A DNA stretch of 64,000 nt from positions 1-64,000 of the forward strand of contig JAKADC010000008.1 in assembly GCA_021820845.1 (NCBI GenBank), given 5' to 3'. Below are positions 2,731-30,346 of the stretch, piece after piece. The position numbers and the translations under genes are program-made. Under the pieces are notes generated by a model. The model was not told the DNA's origin and ran no database searches. It worked only from the letters and a program-made list of their open reading frames with translations. Source of the DNA: Pseudomonadota bacterium. Lineage in GTDB: Bacteria > Pseudomonadota > Gammaproteobacteria > Burkholderiales > Thiobacillaceae. Each line of letters starts with the position of its first letter. Position 1 is the stretch's first letter.

Positions 2731-2750
2731 AGATGGGGTGGATGATGGGA
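2731..2750. repeat. island 1 left attachment site (attL), tRNA-His 3' fragment
   Basis: The 20 bases AGATGGGGTGGATGATGGGA are repeated exactly at 16452-16471. This copy has only the tRNA 3' end and lacks the rest of the tRNA, so it marks the distal junction. Confidence 0.88.
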
Positions 2751-3015: not shown

Positions 3016-4188
3016 GTGGATACGGTTAATATGGGCGAGTTGAGTGGTTTGAAGGCTGATTTAGCCCAGATTGTTAGGTTGGCGCTGGCAGAACAAACGG
3101 AAGACGTTCGTCTGTTCGCTGCAAGGCTGGTCAGAAAGTACCGGAATACCGAACCGGAGTTGGCCGAACAGGTGGACCTGTTTCTACGCGCCAAGCCGCA
3201 TCGAGCAGGGGCACCATTGCGCAAGGCGGTGGCGCCGATGCCACCGGGGCAGGCCCTGCCGGTGGATGACGAGTCGCGTCTGTCGTTACTGAAGGTCTTC
3301 AACGACTCCTCGGACCGAGAGGCGCCGATGTTGTCGGCGGAGCTAGAGGAATCCCTTGGGCAGTTAATTCAAGAGCGCAAGCAGATGGCACGCCTTGCCG
3401 CGTTGGGCTTGACCCCGACACGTTCTGCCATCTTTGTTGGTCAGCCTGGCGTCGGCAAGACGCTGACGGCACGTTGGCTGGCCGCCCAGCTTGACGTGCC
3501 GTTGTATGTGCTCGATCTGACGGCTGTTATGAGCAGTCTGCTTGGACGCAGCGGCAGCAATCTGCGCGCGGCGCTGGACTTCGCCAAGCGTAGCCCCTGC
3601 GTCCTGCTGTTGGACGAGATCGATGCTATAGCCAAGCGCCGCAGTGATGACTCTGATGTTGGTGAACTCAAACGGCTGGTGACTGTGATCCTGCAGGAAG
3701 TCGATGAGTGGCCTGCGACGGGATTGCTACTGGCCGCCACCAATCACCCGGAGCTGATCGATCCGGCGCTGTGGCGGCGGTTTGATCTGGTCGTGGAATT
3801 CAAGGTGCCAAAGTCGGCGGCGATCAAGGAAGCCATCAAGCGGTTCCTTGGGCCGGACTCTGCGCTGTTCGGTCGCTGGATCGATGTTCTGACCTTCGCG
3901 TTTCGCGGCCAGTCCTTCAGCGACATCGAGCGCGAAATACAGCGCTTCCGGCGCGCCGTGGCGTTGGGGACAACGCCGGATGCCGACTTGATCGAGGAGT
4001 TCATCAAAGCACGCGCCCTCTCGCTAGATCGGCAGGGCCGCATCGACATGGCAGTGTTGCTGGCAAAACAGACGCGTCTGTCCCAGCACAGCATTTCGGA
4101 CATCACTGGAGTGAGCCGGGACACCATTCGCAAGTACACAACCTGCGAACCAACCGTCGTTCCCAAGAAGCGGAGGCATGAGGCATGA
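3016..4188 (+). CDS. AAA+ ATPase with C-terminal helix-turn-helix, partner of subtilase
   Basis: Cytosolic AAA+ ATPase of 390 aa. Walker A GQPGVGKT is at 142-149, Walker B LLLDEID at 197-203, sensor 1 in AATNHPE near 240-246, and paired arginines RR at 254-255 in the arginine-finger region. Residues 350-375 (TRLSQHSISDITGVSRDTIRKY) look like a DNA-binding helix-turn-helix, unusual for this fold. The first 110 residues are helical and may bind a partner. The start is GTG at 3016; an ATG at 3031 is a possible alternative, and neither has a clear ribosome site. The 4-nt overlap with the subtilase gene indicates a two-component module. AAA-subtilase pairs recur in accessory and defence regions; here the role is inferred from context only. 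Confidence 0.85.
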   Translation: MDTVNMGELSGLKADLAQIVRLALAEQTEDVRLFAARLVRKYRNTEPELAEQVDLFLRAKPHRAGAPLRKAVAPMPPGQALPVDDESRLSLLKVFNDSSDREAPMLSAELEESLGQLIQERKQMARLAALGLTPTRSAIFVGQPGVGKTLTARWLAAQLDVPLYVLDLTAVMSSLLGRSGSNLRAALDFAKRSPCVLLLDEIDAIAKRRSDDSDVGELKRLVTVILQEVDEWPATGLLLAATNHPELIDPALWRRFDLVVEFKVPKSAAIKEAIKRFLGPDSALFGRWIDVLTFAFRGQSFSDIEREIQRFRRAVALGTTPDADLIEEFIKARALSLDRQGRIDMAVLLAKQTRLSQHSISDITGVSRDTIRKYTTCEPTVVPKKRRHEA

Positions 4189-6407
4189 GTCAGACGAACT
4201 TTCTGATCGGGCGTGGTGAGCTGTTGACCCACGAAATCAAGGGTCCCAAGCGCGGCATGGACAAGGCCGAGGTGTACACGTTGCAGCAGGCGAGGAGCCG
4301 GTTGACGCCGCAGTTCGTCGAAGTCGCGTCGAGCCTCGACAATTTGCCCGCCAATGCCTGTCCGGGGGATTTGGCGGTGGCGCGCCTCACACTCAGTCCC
4401 AGCTACATCGCGCGCTCCTTCTTCCCGGTGGCCATGCTGCGCAGCGCTGGTTTTGAGTCGGTCGGAAGCAGGGCCGTCAAACTTACACCGGATGGCTGGT
4501 CCAAGAAGGGACCGCCGCGCGAATCGACCACTACGGAGCTTTTCGTGGTGGGTAGGCGCCAGGCGTTCCGCCAGTTGAAGGACTGGGCGGGGCAGCTGGA
4601 AGAGGGGTCGAACGAAGCGAAGGATCTGTCGCATATCGAGCGGTTTTCCGCCTTCGAGCCGAAGGACCGCATCGTCTCGCTCGGCAAGGAAAAGGATCGA
4701 TTCTTCGAGGTCGGTATCCATTTGCTTCCCGGTGATAACGAGCAGTTCGTGCAACGTGCATTCGCCAACTATGCGGCAGACGTTGGCGTAACGATCCATG
4801 CCGACCTGGCGTTCAGCGCGGGTAACCTATGGTTCCTCCCGGCCGAGGGCAGGCACAAGGACGTCAAGCGCCTGGCCGAGTTCTCCTTTGTGCGTGTGAT
4901 TCGTCCCATGCCGAAACTACGCGGCATGCGCCCCGTGCAGCGCTCGGCGGGCGTGACAGTGGCGTGCAGTTTGCCGACGGAACAACCTCTGTCGTCCGAA
5001 CCCAAGGTAGCCATCCTCGATGGCGGTTTGCCCAAGCAGCACAGCATCGCGCCGTGGGTGCGTACCTACCGCGTGCTGGATGACAAGGCGGAGGACGATC
5101 CGGGCGGCCTCGAACATGGTCTCGGTGTGACTTCGGCATTCGTGTTCGGCCCTATCGCTCCGAACAGCACCGCGGCACGACCATACTCCTACGTCGATCA
5201 CTTGCGTGTGCTAGATCGCGAGACCGAATCGGAAGACCCTCTTGAGCTGTACCGCACGCTGGGGCTAATCGAAGAAGTTCTACTGTCGCGCCAGTATCAA
5301 TTCATCAATCTCAGCCTGGGGCCGGACCTTCCGATCGAGGACACAGACGTGCATGCCTGGACCTCTGTGATCGACGATCTGCTCAGCGATGGCGATACGT
5401 TTATGACTGTGGCTGTTGGCAACAACGGCGAAATGGATTTGTCAGCGGGCAATGCCCGCGTGCAGGTGCCGGCAGACTGCGTCAATGCGCTATCCGTGGG
5501 CGCCGCCGACAACGTTGATGCGACGTGGGCGCGTGCAGCCTACAGTGCCATTGGACCTGGACGCAGTCCTGGCGTAGTGAAACCAGACCTCATGGCCTTC
5601 GGTGGCGATGCATACAGCTCCAAGTATTTCCACGTGCTGGCAGAAGGCGTGAGGCCGACGTTGGTGCCGCAATTGGGCACCAGTTTCGCGTCTCCGTACC
5701 TGTTGCGCAGTGCCGTCGGGGTACGAGCGATCCTCGGGGCGGATTTGACTCCGCTGGCCATCAAGGCGCTGCTCGTTCACTCGGCTGATCTGTCCACCCA
5801 TGACAAGCTCGAAGTGGGTTGGGGCAAGGTACCCGAAAATTTGATGGAGGTCATTACATGCCCGACTGGCGTGGCGCGAGTGGTCTATCAGGGCGAGTTG
5901 AAGCCGGGTAAGTACCTGCGTGCGACGCTTCCGCTGCCCGTCGGTGGTTTGCAAGGCAACATCCGTTTGAAGGCGACCTTTTGCTATGCCTCGCCGACAG
6001 ACCCGCAGGATGCCGTCGCGTACACGCGGGCTGGCCTCGAGATCGTGTTCCGGCCCAGCGACAAGAAGGTGAAGGAAGGCAAGAAAAATGCCGACACAAA
6101 GGGCTTCTTCGACATGAAGAAGTACGCTACGGAGGAAGAGCGCCGTTCCGACATGGGCAAGTGGGAGACGGTCCTGCACGGCAACAAGTCCATGCGTGGC
6201 AGCAGTCTGGACAACCCGGTATTCGATATCCACTACAACGCACGCGAGGCCGGTGGACCGACGACAAACGCCGAGAAGATTCGATACGCCCTGATCATCT
6301 CAGTTGAGGCGCCTAAGCACGTGGACCTCTACAACGACATTTTGCGCGCTTACGCCAAGACCCTGGTACCTATCCAGCCGAAGGTGAGTCTGCCTGTTCG
6401 CGTATAG
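4185..6407 (+). CDS. subtilisin-like (S8) serine protease paired with AAA+ ATPase
   Basis: Protease of 740 aa without a signal peptide, so it probably acts in the cytoplasm. The S8 triad is complete: Asp279 in AILDGG, His311 in EHGLGV, Ser500 in GTSFASP, with the oxyanion Asn413 in AVGNNG. About 270 residues precede the catalytic domain and 230 follow it, so it is not a small secreted subtilisin. The start ATG overlaps the stop of the ATPase gene (ATGA). The plausible model is an ATPase that senses or delivers a target and a protease that executes cleavage, as in abortive phage defence, but the substrate cannot be read from the sequence. Confidence 0.9.
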   Translation: MSQTNFLIGRGELLTHEIKGPKRGMDKAEVYTLQQARSRLTPQFVEVASSLDNLPANACPGDLAVARLTLSPSYIARSFFPVAMLRSAGFESVGSRAVKLTPDGWSKKGPPRESTTTELFVVGRRQAFRQLKDWAGQLEEGSNEAKDLSHIERFSAFEPKDRIVSLGKEKDRFFEVGIHLLPGDNEQFVQRAFANYAADVGVTIHADLAFSAGNLWFLPAEGRHKDVKRLAEFSFVRVIRPMPKLRGMRPVQRSAGVTVACSLPTEQPLSSEPKVAILDGGLPKQHSIAPWVRTYRVLDDKAEDDPGGLEHGLGVTSAFVFGPIAPNSTAARPYSYVDHLRVLDRETESEDPLELYRTLGLIEEVLLSRQYQFINLSLGPDLPIEDTDVHAWTSVIDDLLSDGDTFMTVAVGNNGEMDLSAGNARVQVPADCVNALSVGAADNVDATWARAAYSAIGPGRSPGVVKPDLMAFGGDAYSSKYFHVLAEGVRPTLVPQLGTSFASPYLLRSAVGVRAILGADLTPLAIKALLVHSADLSTHDKLEVGWGKVPENLMEVITCPTGVARVVYQGELKPGKYLRATLPLPVGGLQGNIRLKATFCYASPTDPQDAVAYTRAGLEIVFRPSDKKVKEGKKNADTKGFFDMKKYATEEERRSDMGKWETVLHGNKSMRGSSLDNPVFDIHYNAREAGGPTTNAEKIRYALIISVEAPKHVDLYNDILRAYAKTLVPIQPKVSLPVRV

Positions 6408-6872: not shown

Positions 6873-7277
6873 CTAATCTTCACCAGGCAACATGATGGTG
6901 ATGACCGGCTCAGGGTCATCGCCGGGGCCGATGTGCAGATGGAGGGTCACCAACCTCGGCCTTACGGAACGGCCGCCCCTCGGCACCCGATAGAGTTGGA
7001 ATGCCAGCCTGTCACCGTGGCCACGGCGTGCGGCCTGGGCAGCCATCCAGACAACGTCCCAAAGGCGGCCGCTTGGGTCTTGATAGGCCTGCCGCCGGCT
7101 GTCTTCCTCACTCCATTCGATGCAGTCCAACCATGCCGCGCGAGTCATCGCCACAGGAAGCCGGAAGCCCGTCTCGGCTGCGATTTCGGTGACGTCAACC
7201 AGCAGGCCGTCTTCGATCGCCTGCGTTCGGCTGTAGGTGTGGATAGGCCCAAAGAAAAGGTCGTTAACTGTGTTCAT
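6873..7277 (-). CDS. DUF6573 family protein
   Basis: 134-aa cytosolic protein typical of plasmids and integrative conjugative elements. It begins MNTVNDLFFGPIHTYSRTQA, with the family-like stretches DVTEIAAETGFRLPVAMTRAAW and GRLWDVVWMA and a conserved C-terminal HLHIGPGDDPEPVITI. AAAGGA lies 10 nt before the ATG at 7277. It probably forms a unit with the gene at 6578 (55 bp gap, same strand). The function of the family is unknown. Its presence supports an ICE ancestry for island 1. Confidence 0.78.
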   Translation of the reverse strand: MNTVNDLFFGPIHTYSRTQAIEDGLLVDVTEIAAETGFRLPVAMTRAAWLDCIEWSEEDSRRQAYQDPSGRLWDVVWMAAQAARRGHGDRLAFQLYRVPRGGRSVRPRLVTLHLHIGPGDDPEPVITIMLPGED

Positions 7278-8219
7278 GCTTTTCGTGTCCTTTCAACGCT
7301 GACCGGATTCCAAGATTCAGAGCCCGCTTTTGCCTTCCGGTCATGTTGCAAAGTGGCTCCCGGCTTTTGCCGCCGTCTTTCCTTAGTTCATCGCCCTTGC
7401 GGCGTTAATGACCGGGCCGATGAGCCATCCGCAAGAGACGCAACCGAAGCCGCAGCTGGAAGAACGGGGGAAGGGGCGCACGAGTGCCAAGAGTCTCTTG
7501 CGGATGGATGGCCCGGGCCAAAGTCGCAACAAAGGGCCGAGGAACCAGGCAGGCGACGGAAGCAGCCGCTCGCGACATGACCGAGCTGGCGGCACGGTCT
7601 GGTCACAGTCCGTGCCGCGCTCTTTGGCAAGCGAAGCGCGCAGTCGTGCTGAATTTCCAGGACGACGAAGGGGAGCCACGCCACATAAGCAGACAGCGGC
7701 ACGCTGTCGTAGCGACGTGAGCGTGGGGGAAGGTCGGTCCACGACTTCCCCGGCGCAGCGCTCCCGAAGGGATGCAAGCCGCAGGGGGAGCCGCTACCAG
7801 ACAGCGGACAGCGGCACGCGTCGTCCGATGGCAGGCCCGCCCAAGCGGGCCGGTGGTTGGCGGGGGACGCAGTCCCGGCGCCCCGTGCCGTAGGCGCGGG
7901 AAACCCCATCGCGTTGCATCGGCACGATGCAGACCGCAGGCGAAGCCGAAGCCGGCGCCCCGTCCAGGGGCAGAGGGGGATGGGGTTTCCCGCGCGTTGC
8001 GGCGTGCTCCGGCACGACACAAGGCACAGGGGCGCCCGGGGTTTTCAGGACACGCGAGGCCATAGACTCGCGAGGCGGCGGGCATCCGTCCAGGATGCGG
8101 AAGCTGGCGGTGTCCTGGATGTTTGTTCTGGCTGTTCGTCCCCCGTGTTCGCCCGGGGACGTATGCAGGGATGAACAGCCCGGTAGCTATACGAGTTATC
8201 GCAACAACGGAGATAACTC
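7278..8219. other. 942-bp noncoding region dense in stem-loops
   Basis: No reading frame here has a ribosome site or protein-like composition. From about 7589 onward the sequence is a chain of perfect or near-perfect inverted repeats: 7589-7597 with 7610-7618, 7834-7840 with 7845-7851, the branched element 7874-8040, 8082-8087 with 8093-8098, 8130-8137 with 8173-8180 (enclosing 8138-8143 with 8155-8160), and 8192-8200 with 8212-8220. GACAGCGGCACG occurs directly repeated near 7692 and 7807. Candidates are an origin of transfer or replication, or a structured RNA/leader for the gene at 8220. Confidence 0.6.
7874..8040. repeat. nested, branched inverted-repeat element (structured RNA or cruciform DNA)
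   Basis: An outer stem pairs 7874-7889 with 8023-8040 (16 bp, two single-base bulges). Inside it, 7894-7910 pairs perfectly with 7979-7995 over 17 bp; that stem encloses two hairpins, 7915-7921 with 7925-7931 and 7957-7961 with 7967-7971. A further hairpin, 8003-8007 with 8012-8016, sits between the stems on the 3' side. The complete nesting argues for a selected structure. Which strand is used, and whether it acts as RNA or DNA, cannot be told. Confidence 0.65.
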
Positions 8220-8220
8220 G
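8192..8220 (+). promoter_or_regulatory. hairpin sequestering the ribosome site of the 8220 gene
   Basis: CGAGTTATC at 8192-8200 is perfectly complementary to GATAACTCG at 8212-8220. The 11-nt loop holds the GGA of the ribosome site, and the right arm includes the first base of the GTG start. It could control translation or act as a protein-binding dyad. Confidence 0.5.
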
Positions 8221-11200
8221 TGACCACCAACAGAGACGGGAGGGAGATAGCCCGGACGTCAGAGCAACGTGTGCTGAAGGCGTTGCACAAGTACGGCTGG
8301 CTCCGCACGCGGGACTTGGCTGTGTTGATTTGGATGCGGGCGAACAGTAGACCCAGGAGTGGAGGCTTCGTCCCGGAGCCTATCGTGGTCGAGCTATCGG
8401 CATGGCGGATGGCCCAGCGGACGTTGGCTAGGCTGCGCAAGGCCGACAAGGTGCTGTGGCGGCAGGCGCCTGACGGGAGCACGATTTATGGTCTGGCTGA
8501 GGCCGGAGCACACTCGTTGGTGCGCCAGGGGATTGGCGCTAGTTCTGGTAAGGACCTGGTGCGGCGCGTGAGCATGTCGCATTACCACCATCGCCGAATC
8601 GCCAACGAGGTCGCAATTCTGGCTAGCCGCCAGGGCTATCGAGTAGCCAGTGAGCGGGAGATAGCCGTTGGGCAGTGGTTCGGCGGCAAAGACGGCGTGG
8701 CCGACAAGTTGCCGGATGTCGTCGTGCGCGATGGAAAAGACGTGTACTGGATTGAGGTGGAGCGTAGCCGGCGCAATAAGACGGACGAAGCCGCCTTGCG
8801 CACGGCCCTTGCGGTGATAAGAACGGACGACGGCTGCGACGAGAAGTTGATGGTTGCAGCTGCGATGCAGCTCACGTCGGCTGCAGCGCTCATCGGAAGC
8901 GTCACTCGCTCGCAACTTGAGCACGCTTTGGACGGGCAGCGGCGCGGCCTGAAGGTGTACGAGAGCCTGAGGAGCCTGAATGAGATCATCGGTACACAGT
9001 ACGGCGACCGCGTCCTTTTCGAGCTGCTTCAGAACGCCCACGATGCGCACGCCATTGGCGAGAAGGGCGAAGTTGCCATCCACCTGGTGGTCGCGAACGA
9101 CCACACGGGCGTACTGCTCGTCGCCAACAAGGGGCGCCCCTTCTCCGACTCGAACTTCGAGGCGATCCGCAACATCGGAACGAGCGATAAGGAAATCGGC
9201 GAAGGGATCGGAAACAAGGGTCTCGGCTTTAGAAGCGTCGAGGCACTCACCAACGACGTCCACATCTTTTCCGCAGGCGCTCAAATACCGGCGCCCATGT
9301 TCAACGGCTACTGCTTCCGGTTCGCATCAACCGAAGAGATCGCAGAACTCTTGGAGGAGATTGGTGCTTCTCCGGAGATGGCCTCTAAGGTCGCCGCCGA
9401 CATTCCACGCTACCTCGTGCCCGTCGCCGTTACCGAGCAGTCGGACGAGGTGCGCCGCCTCGCCTCGCTGGGGTACGCGACGGTTGTCTGCCTACCATTG
9501 GCTTCGTCGCGCGAGGTCGAACTGGCAGAGAAGCAGGTGGCCGCGCTGATCAACGCGGCCGCGCCAGTCCAGCTCTTTCTCGATCGCCTCGCGTCGCTGG
9601 CGGTCTCGATCGTCCGAGACGGGGTCGAGGTCGAGAAGGCGACGCTCTCCCGTGCGGTTGAACCGCTCTTGCAGGACCCGTCGTCGAGCATTCGGATGCA
9701 ACGCGTCACGCTGAGTGACGGAAGCGCATTTCTCGTTGTCAGGCAGACGCTACTTAAGGACGCCGTGCTGACGGCTGTCGCGAAGAGCATTTCGGCGGCG
9801 CCGCCGCTCAAGCGCTGGCTTGCCTGGAAGGGCGACGCCGTCGTTTCGATTGCCGTGTGCCTGGGTAAGGCGGTCGCGCCACGTCTGTACAACTTTCTTC
9901 CGATGGACGACCACGCGGTCTCGCCGATGGCGGGCCATATTGATGCGCCGTTCTTCGCGGACATCGACCGGCGTACCATCAAGCCCGACTTGCCGCTGAA
10001 CCAGTTGCTGATCGAAGCCGCGGCCGACACCGCGGCAAAGGCCTGCCTGTCGATCGTAGACAAGGGCCTGGCCATACCGGCCAGTGCAGTCGTCGACATG
10101 GCCGCTTGGTCGGGTGCGAGGATTGCGACGATCGTCGGCGCGTTCAAGGCGCTCGAACGGCCGATCACAGACGCAGCGATCTGGCCCGCGACGTCCGGCG
10201 CAGGCGTCAAGTGGGCGCCGCTGAGAAAGCTCTACGCATGGCCAGACACCAGAACCAAGCAGATTACCCCGTTGCGGCTCGAGTCGATCGCCAACGCCCA
10301 CATCCTTACCGGTGTATCCGACGCTCAGTTGTCGCGGATCAGGGCGCTCGCGTCCGCCTTGTCGTTGCCGCTGGAGTTGCATGCGGGTCTGCTGTGCGAT
10401 TGGGTCGAGGCGATGGCGGCACATCTCTCGTCGAAGAAAACCAAGTCTATCGCAACCATCTGGCGAGAGTTCTACCAGGATGTGCTCTCGATCTTCGCCG
10501 CGTCGAAGATCGACCTGGCCGAGTTGGTGGGCAAGAAGGTGCTGCTGGGCGACGACAATAAGCTTCTCGTCGCAACCGCGGATGGCTTGGACGACGCGCC
10601 CCCTGTGTTTGTGCGGATAACGGGCACGCGCGGGAAGCGCACCCAGGGGCCTCCCAACCCCCCTTCGGCCATTGCGCGCAAGTTCCGGTTCCTGAACCAG
10701 CACGTCGAGATCCCAGACGACGTCATCCATAAGTTCGAGAAGGCGGGCCTCCTTCGACAGTATGACCCCATCGAGGCGCTGGCGGCCCTCAAGGGGGCGC
10801 TGGAGTCTGGAACGGACAACCAGCGGCAGGAAGCCCTGACGTGGGCCTTTAGGGTCTGGCTCGTCACCGGCGACAAGTCAGTCGAGGCCGCGCTGCGTCA
10901 GGCCGATTTGAGCGTGCCCTGCCAGAGCGGCTGGATTCGTGCCGAAGACGCCCTAATGTCCTCGTCGTGGAGCGCTCTCGGACGAACGCTCGAGCAGTAT
11001 TTCGACGAGGCCGCACCGATGTCCCCGGATTGCAAGGCGCAGCGCAACCGCCTCCTGGTCTCCTTCTCCAGCTGGCCGCGCGCGCGCGCGGACGATAGGC
11101 GCGAGGACTGGACCCACTTCCTGCAGATCCTCAGAGTCCGGGACGGACTGCAGCCCGTAGCCGCCAACCTGCGTCGTGCGGGCACGCCGAATGGTTACTG

Positions 11201-12689
11201 GAACTGGTTGCTGCGCACAGGCGAACCCAAGGTAGGATTCGATGCGACCTGGACCAGGTACGCCTCGCGGCATGAGCTGCACTACCCGCAGACGGAGTAC
11301 AGGATACACGGCGAGGCCTGGAGAGTACCGGGCCAGCTCGAGCACGATCACCTCCCGGCCTCCGCAAAGGAGGCGCTCTCGAACCTTCTGATTGCCTACC
11401 TGAGGGCCTATGGGCAGAGGCACTTCGAGTTCGACGTCCGGCACTGGCGCGGGCACCAGTCTGTCACCCTTCCAACGCCGCTGTACGTCTTCCTGCGACA
11501 CGGCCAATGGCCCGCGAGCACGCGTTCGGACGAGGTCGTCTTCGCACGACCTTGCGACAGCTGGTCCACGACGGTGGCTCGTCAGCATCCCCCGCGCTTC
11601 GTGGCACGTTTCAAGTCTGAGCCCGGCGCCCGCGAGGAGCTCCCCTCGATCCTGTTTGACCCCAAGATCGGCCTTCGCGACTGGTCGGACCCGACTAGCG
11701 CGCCCGGCCGGCTGGCATCGCTCGCCGCGGCGCTCCCAGATCTCTCGGCCGCCGAAAGACGCGACCTGCGCGACCAAGTCCGCCGCGCGTGGGCCGACGT
11801 CGCGGAGCGTCGCAGCCCGCTGCCCGCCTCGCTACAACTGATTGTGGAGCGGGCGGGAAGCCTCGAACTTCTGCAGGGACGCGAGCCGGACCCGCCGGTC
11901 GTCTACGTGACGAGCGAGCCCCAGGCCTTCTCCGCGCGCTCGCTGAGCGACGCTGGCGAGGCCGTGCTCGACGTAGGGGAGACCAACGCCTCACTGATCT
12001 GCGATCTGCTCAAGGCGACCAGCTGCTTTTCTCCGCGGCTGACGGATTCCGGCGAAGTGCAGTTGGTCGTCGACGGCGGCCCGTTCGAGGCGTCGCCCGA
12101 CGACCCCCCGCTGGTGGCTGGCGAGCTTTCCTGGCTGAGCGACCTTGCCGCCCTGGCGCACGAGCATCTCGGCGATCCTCTGGAGACGCGGACGCTCCCC
12201 GTGGACGAGCTCGACCGCCGGCTTCGCGCGATCCGGGTCAGGCGCTGCGGGGGATTCGCCCTAACCATCTCGGGGCTCGAGATACCGGTGCGTGGCAGGG
12301 AGCGCGTGCACGCCGTGCAGCACGCCCGCGCCCCGACGTTGCTCGTTAGGACTGTCGGCCCCATCGACCTGCCGCTGCTGCTCGAAGCGTCGCAGGCGCT
12401 CACCAAGCTGCTCGGGTCGCGGCGCAACACGCTCGAACTTCTGCTGGGAAGGCTGCAGCGCGACGGCTACGGCGGCGGCGCAGCGGGGCCGTCCGAGGAC
12501 ATGCTGGCCAGGGCCATTGGCAGAGACGTCAGCGTCGTGCGCGAGCACTTCGCCGCGACGAAGGGCGGTGTACAGCGCCGCGTCGACGCGGTGCTGCCGG
12601 CGTTGGCCTTCCTCAAGGGCCGGGAGGCCGCGGAGCGGCTTCGCGAGGGACACGCTAAGCTTGGCCCCGCCCTGCAGCTTCGCGCCTAG
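8220..12689 (+). CDS. replication-relaxation-like/GHKL ATPase protein, ended by in-frame amber codon
   Basis: 1489-aa reading frame beginning GTG with GGAG 7 nt upstream. Residues 10-110 form a winged-helix-like region (TSEQRVLKALHKYGWLRTRD and QRTLARLRKADKVLW). Residues 120-190 resemble replication-relaxation/MobC-type proteins (SHYHHRRIANEVAIL, DVYWIEVERSRR). From about residue 230 a GHKL ATPase of Hsp90/sacsin type begins: ELLQNAHDA near 267-275 (N box), VANKGRPF near 301-308, GIGNKGLGFRS near 328-338. The rest is a long uncharacterised body. The TAG at 12687-12689 is followed in the same frame by 471 more codons, so the full protein was about 1960 aa. An internal ATG at 8850 or 8865 could start the GHKL part alone. 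Confidence 0.75.
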   Translation: MTTNRDGREIARTSEQRVLKALHKYGWLRTRDLAVLIWMRANSRPRSGGFVPEPIVVELSAWRMAQRTLARLRKADKVLWRQAPDGSTIYGLAEAGAHSLVRQGIGASSGKDLVRRVSMSHYHHRRIANEVAILASRQGYRVASEREIAVGQWFGGKDGVADKLPDVVVRDGKDVYWIEVERSRRNKTDEAALRTALAVIRTDDGCDEKLMVAAAMQLTSAAALIGSVTRSQLEHALDGQRRGLKVYESLRSLNEIIGTQYGDRVLFELLQNAHDAHAIGEKGEVAIHLVVANDHTGVLLVANKGRPFSDSNFEAIRNIGTSDKEIGEGIGNKGLGFRSVEALTNDVHIFSAGAQIPAPMFNGYCFRFASTEEIAELLEEIGASPEMASKVAADIPRYLVPVAVTEQSDEVRRLASLGYATVVCLPLASSREVELAEKQVAALINAAAPVQLFLDRLASLAVSIVRDGVEVEKATLSRAVEPLLQDPSSSIRMQRVTLSDGSAFLVVRQTLLKDAVLTAVAKSISAAPPLKRWLAWKGDAVVSIAVCLGKAVAPRLYNFLPMDDHAVSPMAGHIDAPFFADIDRRTIKPDLPLNQLLIEAAADTAAKACLSIVDKGLAIPASAVVDMAAWSGARIATIVGAFKALERPITDAAIWPATSGAGVKWAPLRKLYAWPDTRTKQITPLRLESIANAHILTGVSDAQLSRIRALASALSLPLELHAGLLCDWVEAMAAHLSSKKTKSIATIWREFYQDVLSIFAASKIDLAELVGKKVLLGDDNKLLVATADGLDDAPPVFVRITGTRGKRTQGPPNPPSAIARKFRFLNQHVEIPDDVIHKFEKAGLLRQYDPIEALAALKGALESGTDNQRQEALTWAFRVWLVTGDKSVEAALRQADLSVPCQSGWIRAEDALMSSSWSALGRTLEQYFDEAAPMSPDCKAQRNRLLVSFSSWPRARADDRREDWTHFLQILRVRDGLQPVAANLRRAGTPNGYWNWLLRTGEPKVGFDATWTRYASRHELHYPQTEYRIHGEAWRVPGQLEHDHLPASAKEALSNLLIAYLRAYGQRHFEFDVRHWRGHQSVTLPTPLYVFLRHGQWPASTRSDEVVFARPCDSWSTTVARQHPPRFVARFKSEPGAREELPSILFDPKIGLRDWSDPTSAPGRLASLAAALPDLSAAERRDLRDQVRRAWADVAERRSPLPASLQLIVERAGSLELLQGREPDPPVVYVTSEPQAFSARSLSDAGEAVLDVGETNASLICDLLKATSCFSPRLTDSGEVQLVVDGGPFEASPDDPPLVAGELSWLSDLAALAHEHLGDPLETRTLPVDELDRRLRAIRVRRCGGFALTISGLEIPVRGRERVHAVQHARAPTLLVRTVGPIDLPLLLEASQALTKLLGSRRNTLELLLGRLQRDGYGGGAAGPSEDMLARAIGRDVSVVREHFAATKGGVQRRVDAVLPALAFLKGREAAERLREGHAKLGPALQLRA

Positions 12690-14102
12690 CTCGCCGGCGA
12701 GCTCTCGGTGGAGGTGGTCGACCAACTGCTCGAGATCGTCGCCGAGACCGACGACCAGAAGGCGATCCGCCTGCGGCTCAACCTTGACTTCGCCGCCTTC
12801 GGCCGCACGCTCGCCGAGCTTGGCTACCCACCGATGAACGACGAGGCGGACTTCCACCGCCTGTTCAGCGCGTACCTCGCCGAGTTGGCCCCCTCGATAC
12901 GTGCTCGGCTCAGGCGAGCCTTTTTGCCCGCTTGGCGGGCCGCTGCGTCGCTCGACGAGTACGTGGCCCTGCGAACGCTTGAATTCATACAGTTCGACTC
13001 GCAGTGGCCGCTGCAGCTGGAGCAGCTCGATCGAGCTCACGTCGTCGCCCACGCGGATATTGCGGTCGAGGCCCGGCTTGGGGCCGACGACCCTGCCGTC
13101 GAGCTTGAGGCCTTGGATGTCGTTGCAGCCGCCAATCGGAAGCAGGTTATGGCGCGACACGCGGACTTGACGAACCTGGTGCGCGCCTGGTGCAGGAAGA
13201 ACGGTGCTCAACCACCGACAGGCGCGGGCGCAGCCGATGCCCAGCAACTCGTGCGCGAGCTGGACCAGGCGGGCCTGCTGGACTTCGAGGTGATCGCGCC
13301 ACCAGCCTTGCCGGCGCTGCTGCGCCGGCAAGGCTGGTGGCCGGCAAACATGCCAACCACCGAGGCCCTGAGTGACTTAGGCCTGACGGCGGAAGACTTG
13401 AAGTACGAGGAGCAGGAGGCTCGCGAACTCCGACTGAAGGCCGAGGTGGCTCGCCGCAGCGTCCCCTTCGCTGGACGGTCGCTGGACACCGGAAGCCCCG
13501 AATTCATCCTGGAGTTCGAGAACCTCGCGGACACCGCCATCGCTCAAAGCGACGAGTGGTTTACCCGCAGCCGCGTCGCACGCCTGCTCCACCAGGAGGA
13601 ATCAGGTAAACCGCGGTCGGGATCGGGCGGAGGAGGCGGAGGCGGAACTTGGCGCAACCAGCCCTCCGACGCAACCCGCACGGTGATGGGCATGGCGAGC
13701 GAGTGGCTGGCGTGGAAGCTGCTCTTCCGTCACCACCCGAAGGAGATGTCGGACGAGTGCTGGGTCTCGTCGAACCGCGAAAAGTTCTGCACCGGCCCGG
13801 CGGGCGACGACTCCTTGGGCTACGACTTCCGGGTCGTGACCGCGCGCCATGAGTATCTCTACGAGGTTAAGTCGGCGCTCGACGCCGGCGGCGAGTTCGA
13901 GCTGACGGCGCGAGAGCTTGAGGTCGCTGGCAGTGCAAGAGAGGACCGAAAGCGCAGGTACCGCATCCTGTACGTGCCGTTCGTGTTCGACCCGACCCGC
14001 TGGATGGTGATGACCCTGCCCAACCCGGTCGGCATCAAAACGCGCGATCAGTTTCGGGTCGTGCGAAGCGGCTCCGTTCGGTACCGCTTTGAGCAGCGCT
14101 AG
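12690..14102 (+). pseudogene. C-terminal part of the GHKL protein, DUF3883 end, cut off by amber codon
   Basis: Same frame as the gene at 8220, continuing directly after TAG (LAGELSVEVVDQ). About 270 helical residues are followed by a Gly-rich linker (SGSGGGGGGG, near 13617-13646). A DUF3883/NOV-C-like domain ends it: MGMASEWLAWKLL, WVSSNREKF, GDDSLGYDFRVV and YLYEVKSA. The last two give a D...E-x-K arrangement seen in restriction-like nucleases. Codon use and composition stay protein-like to the end, so the break looks recent. A GTG at 12708 could restart translation, giving 464 aa, though no good ribosome site precedes it. GHKL plus DUF3883 architecture suggests a defence protein; this is inference. 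Confidence 0.7.
13299..13340. repeat. 18-bp perfect inverted repeat inside the DUF3883 reading frame
   Basis: Arm 13299-13316 is the exact reverse complement of 13323-13340 with a 6-nt loop (CTGCTG). It encodes PPALPALLRRQGWW without disturbing the frame. Confidence 0.75.
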
Positions 14103-14564: not shown

Positions 14565-16340
14565 TCAGTCTCTGCACTTGAGGCTGATGAAACCCTGGCC
14601 CGGTTGCCAGGGGAGGGCCCCAACCGCGGGGAACTGGATGCGCGAAAAGTGCTCGACCTTGAGGCTGAATGGCAGGTCGGACCCGTACCCGTCGGTCACT
14701 GTACCGTCACCGGTGGTATGACCAAGCAAGCGCTTCAGATATTTGGTCGGAACGGACGCGGCTTCCAGCAGGTCTTTCATGTTGTGCCTGAGTGAATAGA
14801 GGACTTTGCGCTTGTCAGTGATGCCGATGGCGCGCAAGTGGCGGCCAAAGAACTTCGAGAAGGCTCCTGACAGCTTGCCGTGGGTGTCCTTTCGCAGGGT
14901 CGGGAACATCACCGTATCACCTCGCGTGCGGACCCATTCAACGTAGCGAAGCAGCCCCAAGTCGATAAGCTGCTGTGGAACAGGTACTGGCCTCCTGGAC
15001 GGGGCATTCTTGAGTGTGCGCCGGTGGCTCAGGGGGACGTCGTCATCGAATAGGTCACGGTCTTCATCGGATTGGCGGTCGATAAGGTCTAGGTACCAGT
15101 AGCCTGAAGTCTCATCCTGCCGAAGGTCGCTCAGTGCGAGCCCTGCGATCTCTTCGGGACGGGCACCCGTATAGAACATCAATAGCGGGATCCAGTAGCT
15201 CGCTTCGCCAGACTGGCCCTTCGAGCGCATGTGCTTCGTGAAAACCTCGGAGCGGAAAAGGGTGTCAAGGTCGGTGGGAGCGAATGGGAGCCGGCGTTTG
15301 CGCCGTTTCTTGGCGTTGCTTTCCTTGCGACCCAGGGTTTCAGCCGCAGGGTTAGAGGCGAGAAGGTGCTTACCGGCTGCCACCTTGAAGATATCCCGCA
15401 GCTTCCCAATGCGTCCGTTGGTAGTGACCACAGCGAGTCCGCGCTCGTGCATGGAGTCCACGAATTCCGTCATCAACTCTGGCGTGATGTGCCCTGGCAA
15501 CGAGATTCCCTTTGCTTCGACGAAGCGGCGCAGGTCACGCCACGGTGTCCGGTAGGCAATTGTCGTTGACGGTGGCCGGTCCTCTACCTGGTCGCGCCAG
15601 GTTTCAAAGACCTTGTCCCACGTGGGTGCCTTAGGATCGACGGGCGCGCGTTCCGGGGCGACGGCGTAGAGAGGGTGCCGTGACTCCGGGGCGACGGCCG
15701 CGGTATCGACCAGATCGCCGCGCTGCCGCGCGAGCTGGTGATCGAGTGTCTCGATGACGGAGCTCAGAAAAATGTAGCTTGCCCGCTTGGCCTCGTCCTG
15801 CTCTGGGTCGAAGTCCAGACCGCACAGGTACAGGAAACCGTGCAGCGCGGGGAAAATGCCCGCAGTCTTGCCCTGAGCCAGCATCCGTCCCAATTCGGCC
15901 CGCTGCGCAGTCAGCCGCTCGCCCAGTTCCTCGAACTCGTCGTCGTCCATCCCTTGCTGGCGATTCTGCTCGTCGGTCAGGAGCACCTGGTGCATCCAGA
16001 AGCGGGCGAAGTCCTGCAGTTGCTTGTCGCTGAGCTTGCGTACGCGCTTAACCGCCTTGGAGACCCGGCTTAGATCAAGCTGCTGGCGTTTCAACTCGAA
16101 CTCAGCCGCAATCTTCGCGAGTTCTGCGTGGGATCGAGCCTTGGCTTCCCGTTGGTCGGCAGTGCCTAGACTGCGGATGATGTGGGTTTGATGTTGGGGG
16201 TAGGCTGCGCGGATGGCGGCCGGGATGCGGCGCCGAACATACAGGTTGCCGTGCTTGCCGCGGCGATAGAGGCCTTCAGAGACGGCCTTCATTTTGCCGT
16301 GATCGTCACGGCTATCGGGGTTCTTAAGGGTTGCTTTCAC
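14565..16340 (-). CDS. tyrosine recombinase (integrase) of island 1, DUF6538-type N-terminus
   Basis: 591-aa site-specific integrase. The N-terminal region GLYRRGKHGNLYVRRRIPAAIR matches the DUF6538/phage-integrase arm-binding type. It is followed by a core-binding region with the sequence DKVFETWRDQV, then the catalytic domain with Arg in TGARPEEIAGL (about residue 391), H-bearing YSLRHN (about 517), LLGHTTGD (about 541) and the nucleophile Tyr in TDGYGSD (about 550). The start is GTG at 16340, preceded by GGAG; an internal ATG at 16292 begins MKAVSEGLYRRG and is an alternative without a ribosome site. It starts 115 bp from the tRNA-His 3' end and should catalyse recombination at the 20-bp repeats. 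Confidence 0.9.
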   Translation of the reverse strand: MKATLKNPDSRDDHGKMKAVSEGLYRRGKHGNLYVRRRIPAAIRAAYPQHQTHIIRSLGTADQREAKARSHAELAKIAAEFELKRQQLDLSRVSKAVKRVRKLSDKQLQDFARFWMHQVLLTDEQNRQQGMDDDEFEELGERLTAQRAELGRMLAQGKTAGIFPALHGFLYLCGLDFDPEQDEAKRASYIFLSSVIETLDHQLARQRGDLVDTAAVAPESRHPLYAVAPERAPVDPKAPTWDKVFETWRDQVEDRPPSTTIAYRTPWRDLRRFVEAKGISLPGHITPELMTEFVDSMHERGLAVVTTNGRIGKLRDIFKVAAGKHLLASNPAAETLGRKESNAKKRRKRRLPFAPTDLDTLFRSEVFTKHMRSKGQSGEASYWIPLLMFYTGARPEEIAGLALSDLRQDETSGYWYLDLIDRQSDEDRDLFDDDVPLSHRRTLKNAPSRRPVPVPQQLIDLGLLRYVEWVRTRGDTVMFPTLRKDTHGKLSGAFSKFFGRHLRAIGITDKRKVLYSLRHNMKDLLEAASVPTKYLKRLLGHTTGDGTVTDGYGSDLPFSLKVEHFSRIQFPAVGALPWQPGQGFISLKCRD

Positions 16341-16451: not shown

Positions 16452-16471
16452 AGATGGGGTGGATGATGGGA
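16452..16471. repeat. island 1 right attachment site (attR) within tRNA-His
   Basis: Exact copy of 2731-2750. It covers the tRNA-His 3' end (16455-16471) plus three bases beyond CCA, so integration regenerates an intact tRNA. Confidence 0.88.
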
Positions 16472-16531
16472 CTCGAACCCACGACGACAGGAATCACAAT
16501 CCTGGACTCTACCAACTGAGCTACATCCACC
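16455..16531 (-). tRNA. tRNA-His (GTG anticodon)
   Basis: The 77-nt cloverleaf on the minus strand has the encoded extra 5' G(-1) opposite C73, typical of tRNA-His. The anticodon loop is ATTGTGATT and CCA is encoded at 16455-16457. It is last in a Pro-Arg-His run and is the integration target of island 1. Confidence 0.96.
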
Positions 16532-26096: not shown

Positions 26097-28858
<2,762 letters not shown>

Positions 28859-28867
28859 GCAGTCCTC

Positions 28868-30346
28868 TTAGCCTTGGGCGAACCAGGGCGCGCGTGCGGC
28901 CATGATCAATTGTTTGGCGCGTTCGGCATCCATCGCGGCCATTTCGGTCAGCTCATCGACGGCCAGTTCGGCCAGGTCCTCGGTGGTGTGGACCCCCTTG
29001 CTGGCGAGCGTGCGCGCGGTTTCGGCGTCCATGCCCTCGAGCGACAGGAGGTCTCCGGCGGAGGCCTCGACCTGTTCCTCGCCGACGATGGCGGCGGTCA
29101 GGAGCGCGTTGCGGGCGCGGTTGCGCAGCTCGTTGACGAGGTCCTCGTCGAAGGCGTCGATTTCGAGCATTTCGTTCAGCGGCACGTAAGCGACTTCTTC
29201 CAGCGTGGAGAAGCCTTCGTCGACCAGAATCTGGGCGACTTCCTCGTCCACGTCGAGCTTTTCGATGAAGAGCGCGAGCGTCTTGCCGCTCTCGGCCGAC
29301 TGCTTCTCTTCGGCCGTTTCGCGCGACATGATGTTGAGTTCCCAGCCCGTCAGTTCGGACGCGAGGCGGACGTTCTGGCCGCCGCGGCCGATCGCCATCG
29401 CCAACTGTTCCTCGTCCACCACCACGTCCATGCTGTGCTTGTCCTCGTCGACCACGATCGAGCTGACCTCGGCGGGCGCCAGCGCGTTGATGACGTACTG
29501 CGCGGGGTCGGCCGACCAGTGGATGATGTCGACGCGCTCACCGGCGAGCTCGTTGGTCACCGAGGTGACGCGCGAGCCCCTGAGACCGATGCAGGTGCCG
29601 ATCGGGTCGATGCGCGGGTCGTGCGAGACGACGGCGATCTTGGCGCGCAGGCCGGGGTCGCGTGCGGCAGCCTTGATCTCGAGCAGGCCTTCCTCGATTT
29701 CGGGCACTTCCAGTTCGAACAGCTTCATGATGAATTCGGGCGCGGTGCGCGACAGCACCACCTGCGGGCCGCGGACGCCGCGGTCGATGCGCAGCAGGTA
29801 GGCGCGCACGCGGTCGCCGACGCGCAGGTTCTCGCGCGGGATCATCTGGTCGCGGTGCAGGAAGCCCTCGACGCGCCCCGACTCGATGATGGCGTTGCCG
29901 CGGTCGATGCGCTTCACCACGCCGTTGACGAGGTGTTCCTTGCGGGCGAGGAAGTCGCTGATGATCTGCTCGCGCTCGGCGTCGCGGATCTTCTGCAAAA
30001 TGACCTGCTTCGCGGCCTGCGCGCCGATGCGGCCGAATTCGACGTTCTCCAGCGGTTCCTCGATGTAATCGCCGATTTCGATGTCGGGAATCTTGTCCTG
30101 GGCGTCGATCAGCAGAATCTGGTAGCCCTCGGATTCCAGGTCGGCCTCGGACACCACCAGCCAGCGGCGGAACGACTCGTAATCGCCGCTTTCGCGGTCG
30201 ATCGACACGCGCACGTCGGCCTCTTCCTTGAAGCGCTTCTTGGTGGCGGAAGCGAGCGCCTGCTCCAGGGCTTCGAACACCACCTCTTTGTCCACGTTCT
30301 TTTCGCGTGCCAGCGCATCGGCCAGCATCAACATTTCACGGCTCAT
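28868..30346 (-). CDS. nusA: transcription termination/antitermination factor NusA
   Basis: 492-aa RNA polymerase-binding elongation factor. An N-terminal domain ([32 protein letters not shown]) is followed by an S1 domain ([25 protein letters not shown]), KH domains (ACT-like [38 protein letters not shown]) and two acidic C-terminal helix-hairpin repeats, as in proteobacteria. The 9-bp gap to infB and its position after rimP are the standard order. Confidence 0.97.

Follow-up and report, generated by a model that had tools for sequence, protein, structure and literature searches.

A conserved, strand-specific fold beside a MOBC-like relaxase gene, a candidate origin of a mobilizable island

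Introduction

What is a chain of stem-loops several hundred bases long doing immediately in front of a relaxase-like gene? The question is raised by a 64,000-nt stretch of contig JAKADC010000008.1 (assembly GCA_021820845.1, Thiobacillaceae), here called the window, whose positions serve as coordinates throughout. From 7400 to 8220 it carries a hairpin chain that ends at the start codon of an open reading frame (ORF) whose first part resembles the MOBC relaxases. An interpretation made earlier from the letters alone (the sequence-only reading) had proposed that this chain could be an origin of transfer (oriT) or of replication, or equally a large structured RNA that works with the GHKL protein encoded downstream. 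We report that the fold is conserved, that its stems covary, that it belongs to one strand, that it accompanies relaxase-like genes, and that the surrounding DNA has att-like borders. We judge that it is probably a strand-specific origin of transfer or replication of a MOBC-type mobilizable island, one that folds as single-stranded DNA.

Results

The hairpins are confirmed as real and beyond chance. The fold of 7589-8220 has a z-score of -7.4, with none of 20 shuffles as good, that of 7874-8040 a z-score of -6.0 (0 of 200 shuffles), and an inverted-repeat search of 7400-8400 returned 39 pairs, many of them weak and overlapping, all of which bears out the chain of stem-loops in the sequence-only reading. 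The borders drawn there, 7589-8220, were slightly narrow at the upstream side, where a further stem lies at 7425-7507, but the end at 8220 coincides with that of the conserved part, which reaches the start codon in an alignment of 21 loci (A3). When hairpins with stems of 4 Watson-Crick pairs and C(GNA)G, C(GNNA)G, C(GTYCA)G or CCNA loops were counted in the 64 one-kb bins of the window, only 7001-8000 had at least four on either strand.

The sequence-only reading saw nothing protein-coding in the branched element; mechanically called ORFs overlap the hairpin region, and two modules within it, M1 and M2 (Table 1), are conserved as base pairs. The central stem of M1 is the 17-bp perfect inner stem that had been claimed, and by eye it is present in 21 of 21 individual folds. 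Its outer helix does have the claimed 16 pairs in the predicted fold but is broken by bulges, and the three small hairpins said to be enclosed do lie within the inner stem, with one more between the inner and outer stems. The element measures about 0.6-0.8 kb across loci. A loose pattern for the core of its upstream domain was found in 15 of 29 upstream regions, the window itself not among them, and some of these matches may be chance. The gene-proximal end is marked by a conserved CTATAC box and a hairpin over the start codon; CTA[TC]A[CT] occurs in the last 160 bases of 25 of the 29 regions, and the box may hold a nick or a promoter.

The fold is supported by covariation in alignment A3, which omits L057 (partial), L060 (like L053 in the inspected part), the more distant L061, L062, L032, L034, L035 and L036, and L028-L031, which duplicate L049, L043, L058 and L044. 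In M2, 85.9% of 566 cells are paired and 24 of 27 pairs have changed on both sides; in M1, counted over its central stem and inner hairpin, the figures are 92.0% of 440 cells and 15 of 21 pairs, and these percentages are biased in favor of the structures, which were drawn after viewing the same sequences. Covariation reached 0.635 in M2, as against 0.200 in shuffles and at most 0.122 in slides, and 0.461 in M1 (0.123 and at most 0.110); none of 500 shuffles equalled any observed value for either module. The absence of compensatory changes from homologous regions had been set beforehand as one arm of the refuting test, and here the result is the opposite. Compensatory change is overwhelming in M2 and in M1's central stem and inner hairpin, where selection on pairing has kept the fold. 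We limit the claim to these parts because the others gave little or nothing: in MAFFT blocks, module M0 (about 7670-7862) showed little covariation, with 2 of 11 kept pairs having at least two Watson-Crick types, and M3 (about 8115-8240) had no consensus fold.

Functionless GC-rich sequence with chance hairpins, or with hairpins like those of repetitive extragenic palindromes or miniature inverted-repeat transposable elements (REP/MITE), would fit the GC content of 0.65 in 7001-8000 and a 94% identical copy of a 107-bp stem-loop that lies apart from any relaxase match in another genome. This reading is contradicted by the covariation, and the fold z-scores and the fixed place of the element beside the same gene family in many genera also count against it, so that we consider it extremely improbable. 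The copy in question (L027 7433-7539, - strand; window 7885-7991) comprises the central stem-loop alone and lies in a genome of the same genus, G024, near what looks by eye like a tRNA-Asn sequence; it may be what is left of an island border, or a stem-loop that is itself mobile.

A covariance model of M2, R1, found the module beyond its training set in L061 (52.5 bits), L057 (70.6), L035 (30.6) and L084 (69.9), as well as in L060 (63.9), which is near-identical to a training row, and gave weak matches (19-24 bits) in L032, L034, L036 and L033/L062. Among 399 genomes of the same order it matched six: three training genomes, G144 (the genome of L035), the new G195, and G190. We regard the G190 match (L082, E 6.8e-4), which by eye resembles ordinary coding sequence, as chance, and likewise a weak match within the window at 26467-26531 (E 0.28).

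The constant partner of the element is a gene for a relaxase-like protein. In inspected relatives the region upstream of this gene carries, by eye, the same kind of hairpin chain (27 regions were counted; that of L057 is short), which upholds the proposed link to a relaxation-like gene. Two distant plasmid loci depart from the pattern, L064 (hairpin-rich but different) and L065. A DNA search of 199 related genomes gave matches in 10 including the source genome, several of them short, and a protein search of 299 genomes also gave 10 including the source. A scan with alignment A2 of a collection in which 84,980 species are each represented by a single genome yielded 23 loci, by their titles mostly from Burkholderiales and Thiobacillus, five of which were already known (L043, L044, L049, L058, L062); a scan of the same collection with the window protein alone confirmed no locus. 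Plasmids gave no match by DNA and five distant ones by protein, four in Variovorax and one in Thauera. We considered and rejected a phage or satellite origin: phage records gave no protein match to a query with L026, and a scan of viral contigs gave one locus, L084 (IMGVR_UViG_3300035198_000066), which carries the element, DUF6573 and the relaxase-like gene and is perhaps an island misfiled as a virus.

The first ~205 residues of the ORF at 8220 match a family that in ten relatives is a stand-alone protein of ~256-287 aa, with no GHKL part. In the window the GHKL part belongs to the defence protein TmtA, joined behind the relaxase-like domain, and we have dropped the suggested partnership between the fold and a GHKL protein. 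L026 (26.4 bits) and L086 (31.3 bits), both relatives, score above the cut-off of 25.3 for PF13814 'Replic_Relax', which is the MOBC relaxase domain according to Table 1 of PMC5357655; L034 falls below it (19.5 bits), and L028, L033 and L035 have no PF13814 match at E 0.01. PMC12857230 assigns the MOBC relaxases to the PD-(D/E)XK superfamily and describes a winged helix in TraX, a member that has been studied. All of 11 aligned sequences share K163, D166, E179 and E181; in a 23-row alignment (L041 numbering) D165 and E178 never vary and K162, P164 and E180 hardly do. The model of L041 (pLDDT 89.3, pTM 0.88) has a winged helix at residues 1-105, as expected of a MOBC relaxase. Sequence search of the PDB gave nothing convincing, and VIA-align placed no nuclease among its best 50 entries, which the winged helix fills. 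Directly after the relaxase-like gene of L026 lies a gene (7187-9043, - strand) for a phage GPA-type (PF05840) rolling-circle initiator.

The window copy of the protein lacks the usual last ~60 residues and runs into TmtA. Because of this fusion the copy may not work: to judge from its sequence, the relaxase may be altered or dead, and the island may be mobilised by another relaxase only, or not at all. Elsewhere in the genome (C24:7232-7489, - strand; L093) a 741-aa open frame matches the relaxase family PF03432 at 24.7 bits, just over the cut-off, which would make it another relaxase, perhaps of another mobile element.

Only one strand of the element folds. This was seen in a loop census of 27 regions (the 28 of the fold comparison minus L060), in which at least 3 of 4 stem pairs had to be Watson-Crick and the remaining one could be G-T or A-C, with simple first-order resampling for the shuffles. 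C(GNA)G hairpins numbered 77 on the + strand and 7 on the - strand (shuffles 12.4), C(GTYCA)G hairpins 51 and 0 (0.3), CCNA hairpins 48 and 1 (5.7), and C(GNNA)G hairpins 30 and 7 (12.7). Wobble pairs point the same way: among named pairs G-T exceeds A-C by 42 to 9 (p 3e-6; one A6 pair with 12 unpaired cells omitted), and in a consensus of M0, M1 and M2 that forbids G-U by 35 to 9.

Compensatory changes are equally expected of folded DNA and of a structured noncoding RNA. An RNA would favor GNRA and UNCG loops. With stems of 5 Watson-Crick pairs, the 116 tetraloops on the + strand comprise 40 CCNA, 12 GNYA, 5 GNRA, 2 UNCG and 57 others, and C(GNA)G makes up 32 of 83 triloops on that strand as against 1 of 83 on the other. 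GNA and GNNA loops closed by G-C pairs are described as extraordinarily stable in DNA (PMC4686876). Judged from these sequences, the loop types favor single-stranded DNA over RNA, though not decisively.

One rival reading is a large noncoding RNA made from the + strand, which would work with the relaxase-like protein or in mobilisation. A covarying, multi-branched fold on a single strand is what such an RNA would show, as is the excess of G-T over A-C; with RNA parameters the + strand folds better than the - strand in 23 of 28 regions, and there is a precedent in SGI1, which requires an sRNA (sgm-sRNA) encoded between mpsA and oriT (PMC9299015). Against it, Rfam at gathering scores reports only tRNAs in the window and in ten related loci, no sigma-70-like promoter or terminator was found in 7250-8400 (a weak test), GNRA and UNCG loops are rare whereas DNA-type GNA loops are common, and a second copy of the element, described below, folds on the strand opposite to its relaxase-like gene. 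On balance we think an RNA unlikely.

A different possibility, compatible with a transfer origin, is that the fold is not a nick site but a complementary-strand origin like the sso elements of rolling-circle plasmids, or a single-stranded-DNA promoter, recruiting RNA polymerase or primase. Such elements act on one strand only and do not work when turned round, and ssoA is a large structure primed by RNA polymerase, as reported in PMC5703833; the present fold is likewise strand-specific, the neighbor in L026 encodes a phage GPA-type initiator, and a neighbor in L042 encodes a protein with D5-like domains. The element is, however, far larger and more branched than the ~160-nt ssoA, and its constant partner is a MOBC-like relaxase gene. 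We consider this reading somewhat unlikely.

The second copy lies in the same genome, at C20:223613-223704 (L085 8614-8705, - strand), where the DNA search missed it and R1 recovered it at 34.8 bits. It neighbors genes for a TraG/TraD-type coupling protein, DUF499 and a methylase, and its relaxase-like gene encodes a 245-aa protein with no Pfam match and, by eye, a P-D...E-C-E motif. This copy bears on the idea that the element is a cis-acting leader of the relaxase mRNA, controlling translation or transcription. The 10-bp hairpin that covers the GTG start would suit a leader, but 0.6-0.8 kb is very long for one, and the second copy lies beyond its relaxase-like gene and folds on the opposite strand; a leader is thus very unlikely. 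The copy in genome G195 precedes a PF13814 gene, and TraN, TraH, TraG_N and an integrase are encoded close by; three common relaxase families were not found in this genome (80 contigs, 91% complete).

Several results weigh against an origin of a MOBC-type island. The window relaxase domain itself has no Pfam match at E 1, and nothing in the PDB matches the protein at E 0.001; the nucleases Can2, McrBC and Cdn1 give weak hits. R1 has no match at E 1 in the distant-relative loci L022 and L025, on the Variovorax plasmid, or in nine PF13814 loci (L068-L076), some of which hold little upstream DNA, and its matches on Thauera pTha01 are weak (E 0.11-0.34) and away from the relaxase-like gene. Because R1 fails at the Variovorax plasmid and at nine other PF13814 loci, the element, as far as these sequences tell, marks a subfamily of MOBC-like genes and not the whole family. 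Over all census hairpins wobble shows no polarity (G-T 38, A-C 37), a count that we think is probably diluted by chance hairpins. G-T takes a share here (42 of 882) similar to the one it has in 62 tRNAs (84 of 1334, ARAGORN pairing), so wobble is compatible with RNA as well. Finally, the folding strand of the second copy is opposite to its relaxase-like gene (11 loops on -, 2 on +), so the orientation of the element relative to the gene is not fixed.

The element of the window lies within a 13.7-kb island bounded by perfect 20-bp direct repeats 13,721 bp apart at tRNA-His (Table 1). Integrase and flanking att repeats are those of an integrative mobilizable element. No secretion-system gene was found in the seven island ORFs scanned; one 79-aa ORF had a TraS match below the cut-off. 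Of 30 loci, 13 have an ORF of the DUF6573 similarity cluster (single-linkage clustering) ahead of the element, Pfam-confirmed beyond the window only in L084, and we did not find DUF6573 named in the open-licence literature. The TmtA-like gene is split over two ORFs, the first in frame behind the relaxase-like domain, by natural fusion or by decay. Outside the island, 28001-29000 has an AT skew of -0.41, the largest of the one-kb bins.

Table 1. Features of the hairpin chain and of the island that carries it (window positions)
Feature	Position	Strand	Basis
Left 20-bp direct repeat, attL-like	2731..2750	.	identical to 16452-16471
Candidate defence pair IetA (AAA ATPase, 3016-4188) and IetS (subtilase, 4185-6407)	3016..6407	+	PADLOC, 268 and 165 bits
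DUF6573 gene	6873..7277	-	PF20213, E 1.4e-27
Upstream domain: 15-bp perfect stem (7425-7439 / 7493-7507) around GC-rich core	7425..7507	+	inverted-repeat search
Hairpin 7589-7601 / 7606-7618	7589..7618	+	inverted-repeat search
Hairpin GGCCCGC(CCAA)GCGGGCC, CCNA loop type	7834..7851	+	sequence; loop census
Module M1, branched element with outer helix, central stem 7894-7910 / 7979-7995 and inner hairpin 7958-7970 (loop C(GTCCA)G)	7861..8038	+	central stem in folds; covariation of central stem and inner hairpin
Hairpin GGGAC(GCA)GTCCC, GNA loop type, directly 5' of branched element	7864..7876	+	
Module M2: two hairpins, of which that at 8082-8098 has a C(GTCCA)G loop, and a closing stem	8044..8125	+	covariation in 21 loci; covariance model R1
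Terminal long hairpin 8130-8142 / 8168-8180	8130..8180	+	inverted-repeat search; no consensus fold from MAFFT block (M3)
Conserved CTATAC box; candidate nic or -10-like site	8187..8192	+	alignment A3
10-bp hairpin over GTG start codon (8220)	8191..8221	+	inverted-repeat search
MOBC-like relaxase part, first ~205 codons	8220..8834	+	alignments A1, A4; relatives passing PF13814; model of L041
TmtA (Tiamat-like GHKL defence protein), residues 217-1489 of 8220 ORF	8868..12689	+	PADLOC, 1345.6 bits, model positions 11-1312
Separate ORF matching C-terminal part of same TmtA model	12708..14102	+	PADLOC, 492 bits, profile 1325-1780
Tyrosine integrase with DUF6538, adjoining tRNA-His	14565..16340	-	
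Right 20-bp direct repeat, attR-like; overlaps 3' end of tRNA-His 16455-16530 (-)	16452..16471	.	

Discussion

Hairpin-rich DNA beside a relaxase gene is what an oriT would be expected to look like, and it is what the window holds. We infer that the folding molecule is DNA, that the relaxase-like protein nicks it here, and that transfer follows. The region would then be the cis-acting, oriT-like origin of the 13.7-kb integrative island, possibly including a complementary-strand priming site. According to this model, the island would excise and a nick would expose one strand, whereupon the + strand would fold into the hairpin chain and two branched modules with their many C-GNA-G, C-GNNA-G or C-GTYCA-G loops. 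The relaxase-like protein would bind through its winged helix and cut with its PD-(D/E)XK-type site, possibly near CTATAC, and the folded strand would be led into the secretion channel of a helper, prime second-strand synthesis in the recipient, or both. Possible roles of the fold are to be recognised, to guide transfer, or to initiate second-strand synthesis. What the sequence-only reading proposed is partly supported: its link to the relaxation-like gene holds, and the tie to a GHKL protein falls away.

Known systems offer partial likenesses. The MOBC systems of pAD1 (TraX) and CloDF13 (MobC) resemble the present one in a PF13814-like protein with a winged helix and K/D/ExE residues suggestive of the PD-(D/E)XK type, and in the position of the element beside the relaxase gene, and the second copy lies near a coupling-protein gene, as in MobC plasmids and two Streptococcus integrative mobilizable elements described in PMC5704250. 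According to PMC12857230, however, the binding site of pAD1 consists of five direct repeats situated 70-120 bp from nic, in contrast to a branched fold of 0.6-0.8 kb with two covarying modules. The sso of rolling-circle plasmids share strand-specific folding (PMC5703833), but ssoA is small and not tied to a MOBC relaxase. SGI1 with its sgm-sRNA is likewise a mobilizable island in which a functional sequence adjoins a relaxase-like gene and an origin (PMC9299015); its MpsA/MpsB are of tyrosine-recombinase type, whereas the protein here is PD-(D/E)XK-like. A parallel with pRAS4 was rejected, the 'MobC' there being an accessory protein (PMC13381706). Integrative mobilizable elements at tRNA genes combine, as here, an integrase, att-like repeats (at tRNA-His in this case), a relaxase-like domain and defence cargo, but the present origin is unusually large and folded. 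In size and branching the element recalls GOLLD, ROOL and OLE, the large ornate bacterial RNAs, from which it differs in its DNA-type loops and in having no Rfam match other than tRNA.

There is a bolder proposal, which we regard as possible and advance only tentatively: several hundred bases of single-stranded DNA may fold into a conserved structure as ornate as the large structured RNAs, of which it would be the DNA equivalent. A small set of loop modules (C-GNA-G, C-GTYCA-G, CCNA) would be used repeatedly in it, and a PD-(D/E)XK relaxase would recognise its shape in three dimensions, not a linear nic sequence, as the signal for transfer. Both oriT and sso are known to contain hairpins; the elaborate modular fold looks new, and in the titles and abstract beginnings of the open-licence literature we found no strand-specific, covarying, modular fold of 0.6-0.8 kb beside a MOBC-like relaxase.

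For many genomic islands, including defence islands, the means of movement is unknown. A conserved fold that can be searched for, and that sits next to MOBC-like relaxases of one subfamily, would mark such islands and match relaxases to their origins. Relaxase typing can miss proteins of this kind, as on the Variovorax plasmid, where a distant relative (27.5% identity) lies beside tra genes and the plasmid is typed 'non-mobilizable', though the folded element was not found there. The plasmid Variovorax sp. SRS16 plasmid 2 (L066, 55000-104000) bears a large tRNA array, with 42 tRNA genes in 49 kb by ARAGORN. If our interpretation is correct, base pairs would here covary strongly in probable single-stranded DNA, where this is rare, and the role of folded DNA as a recognition signal would be directly testable.
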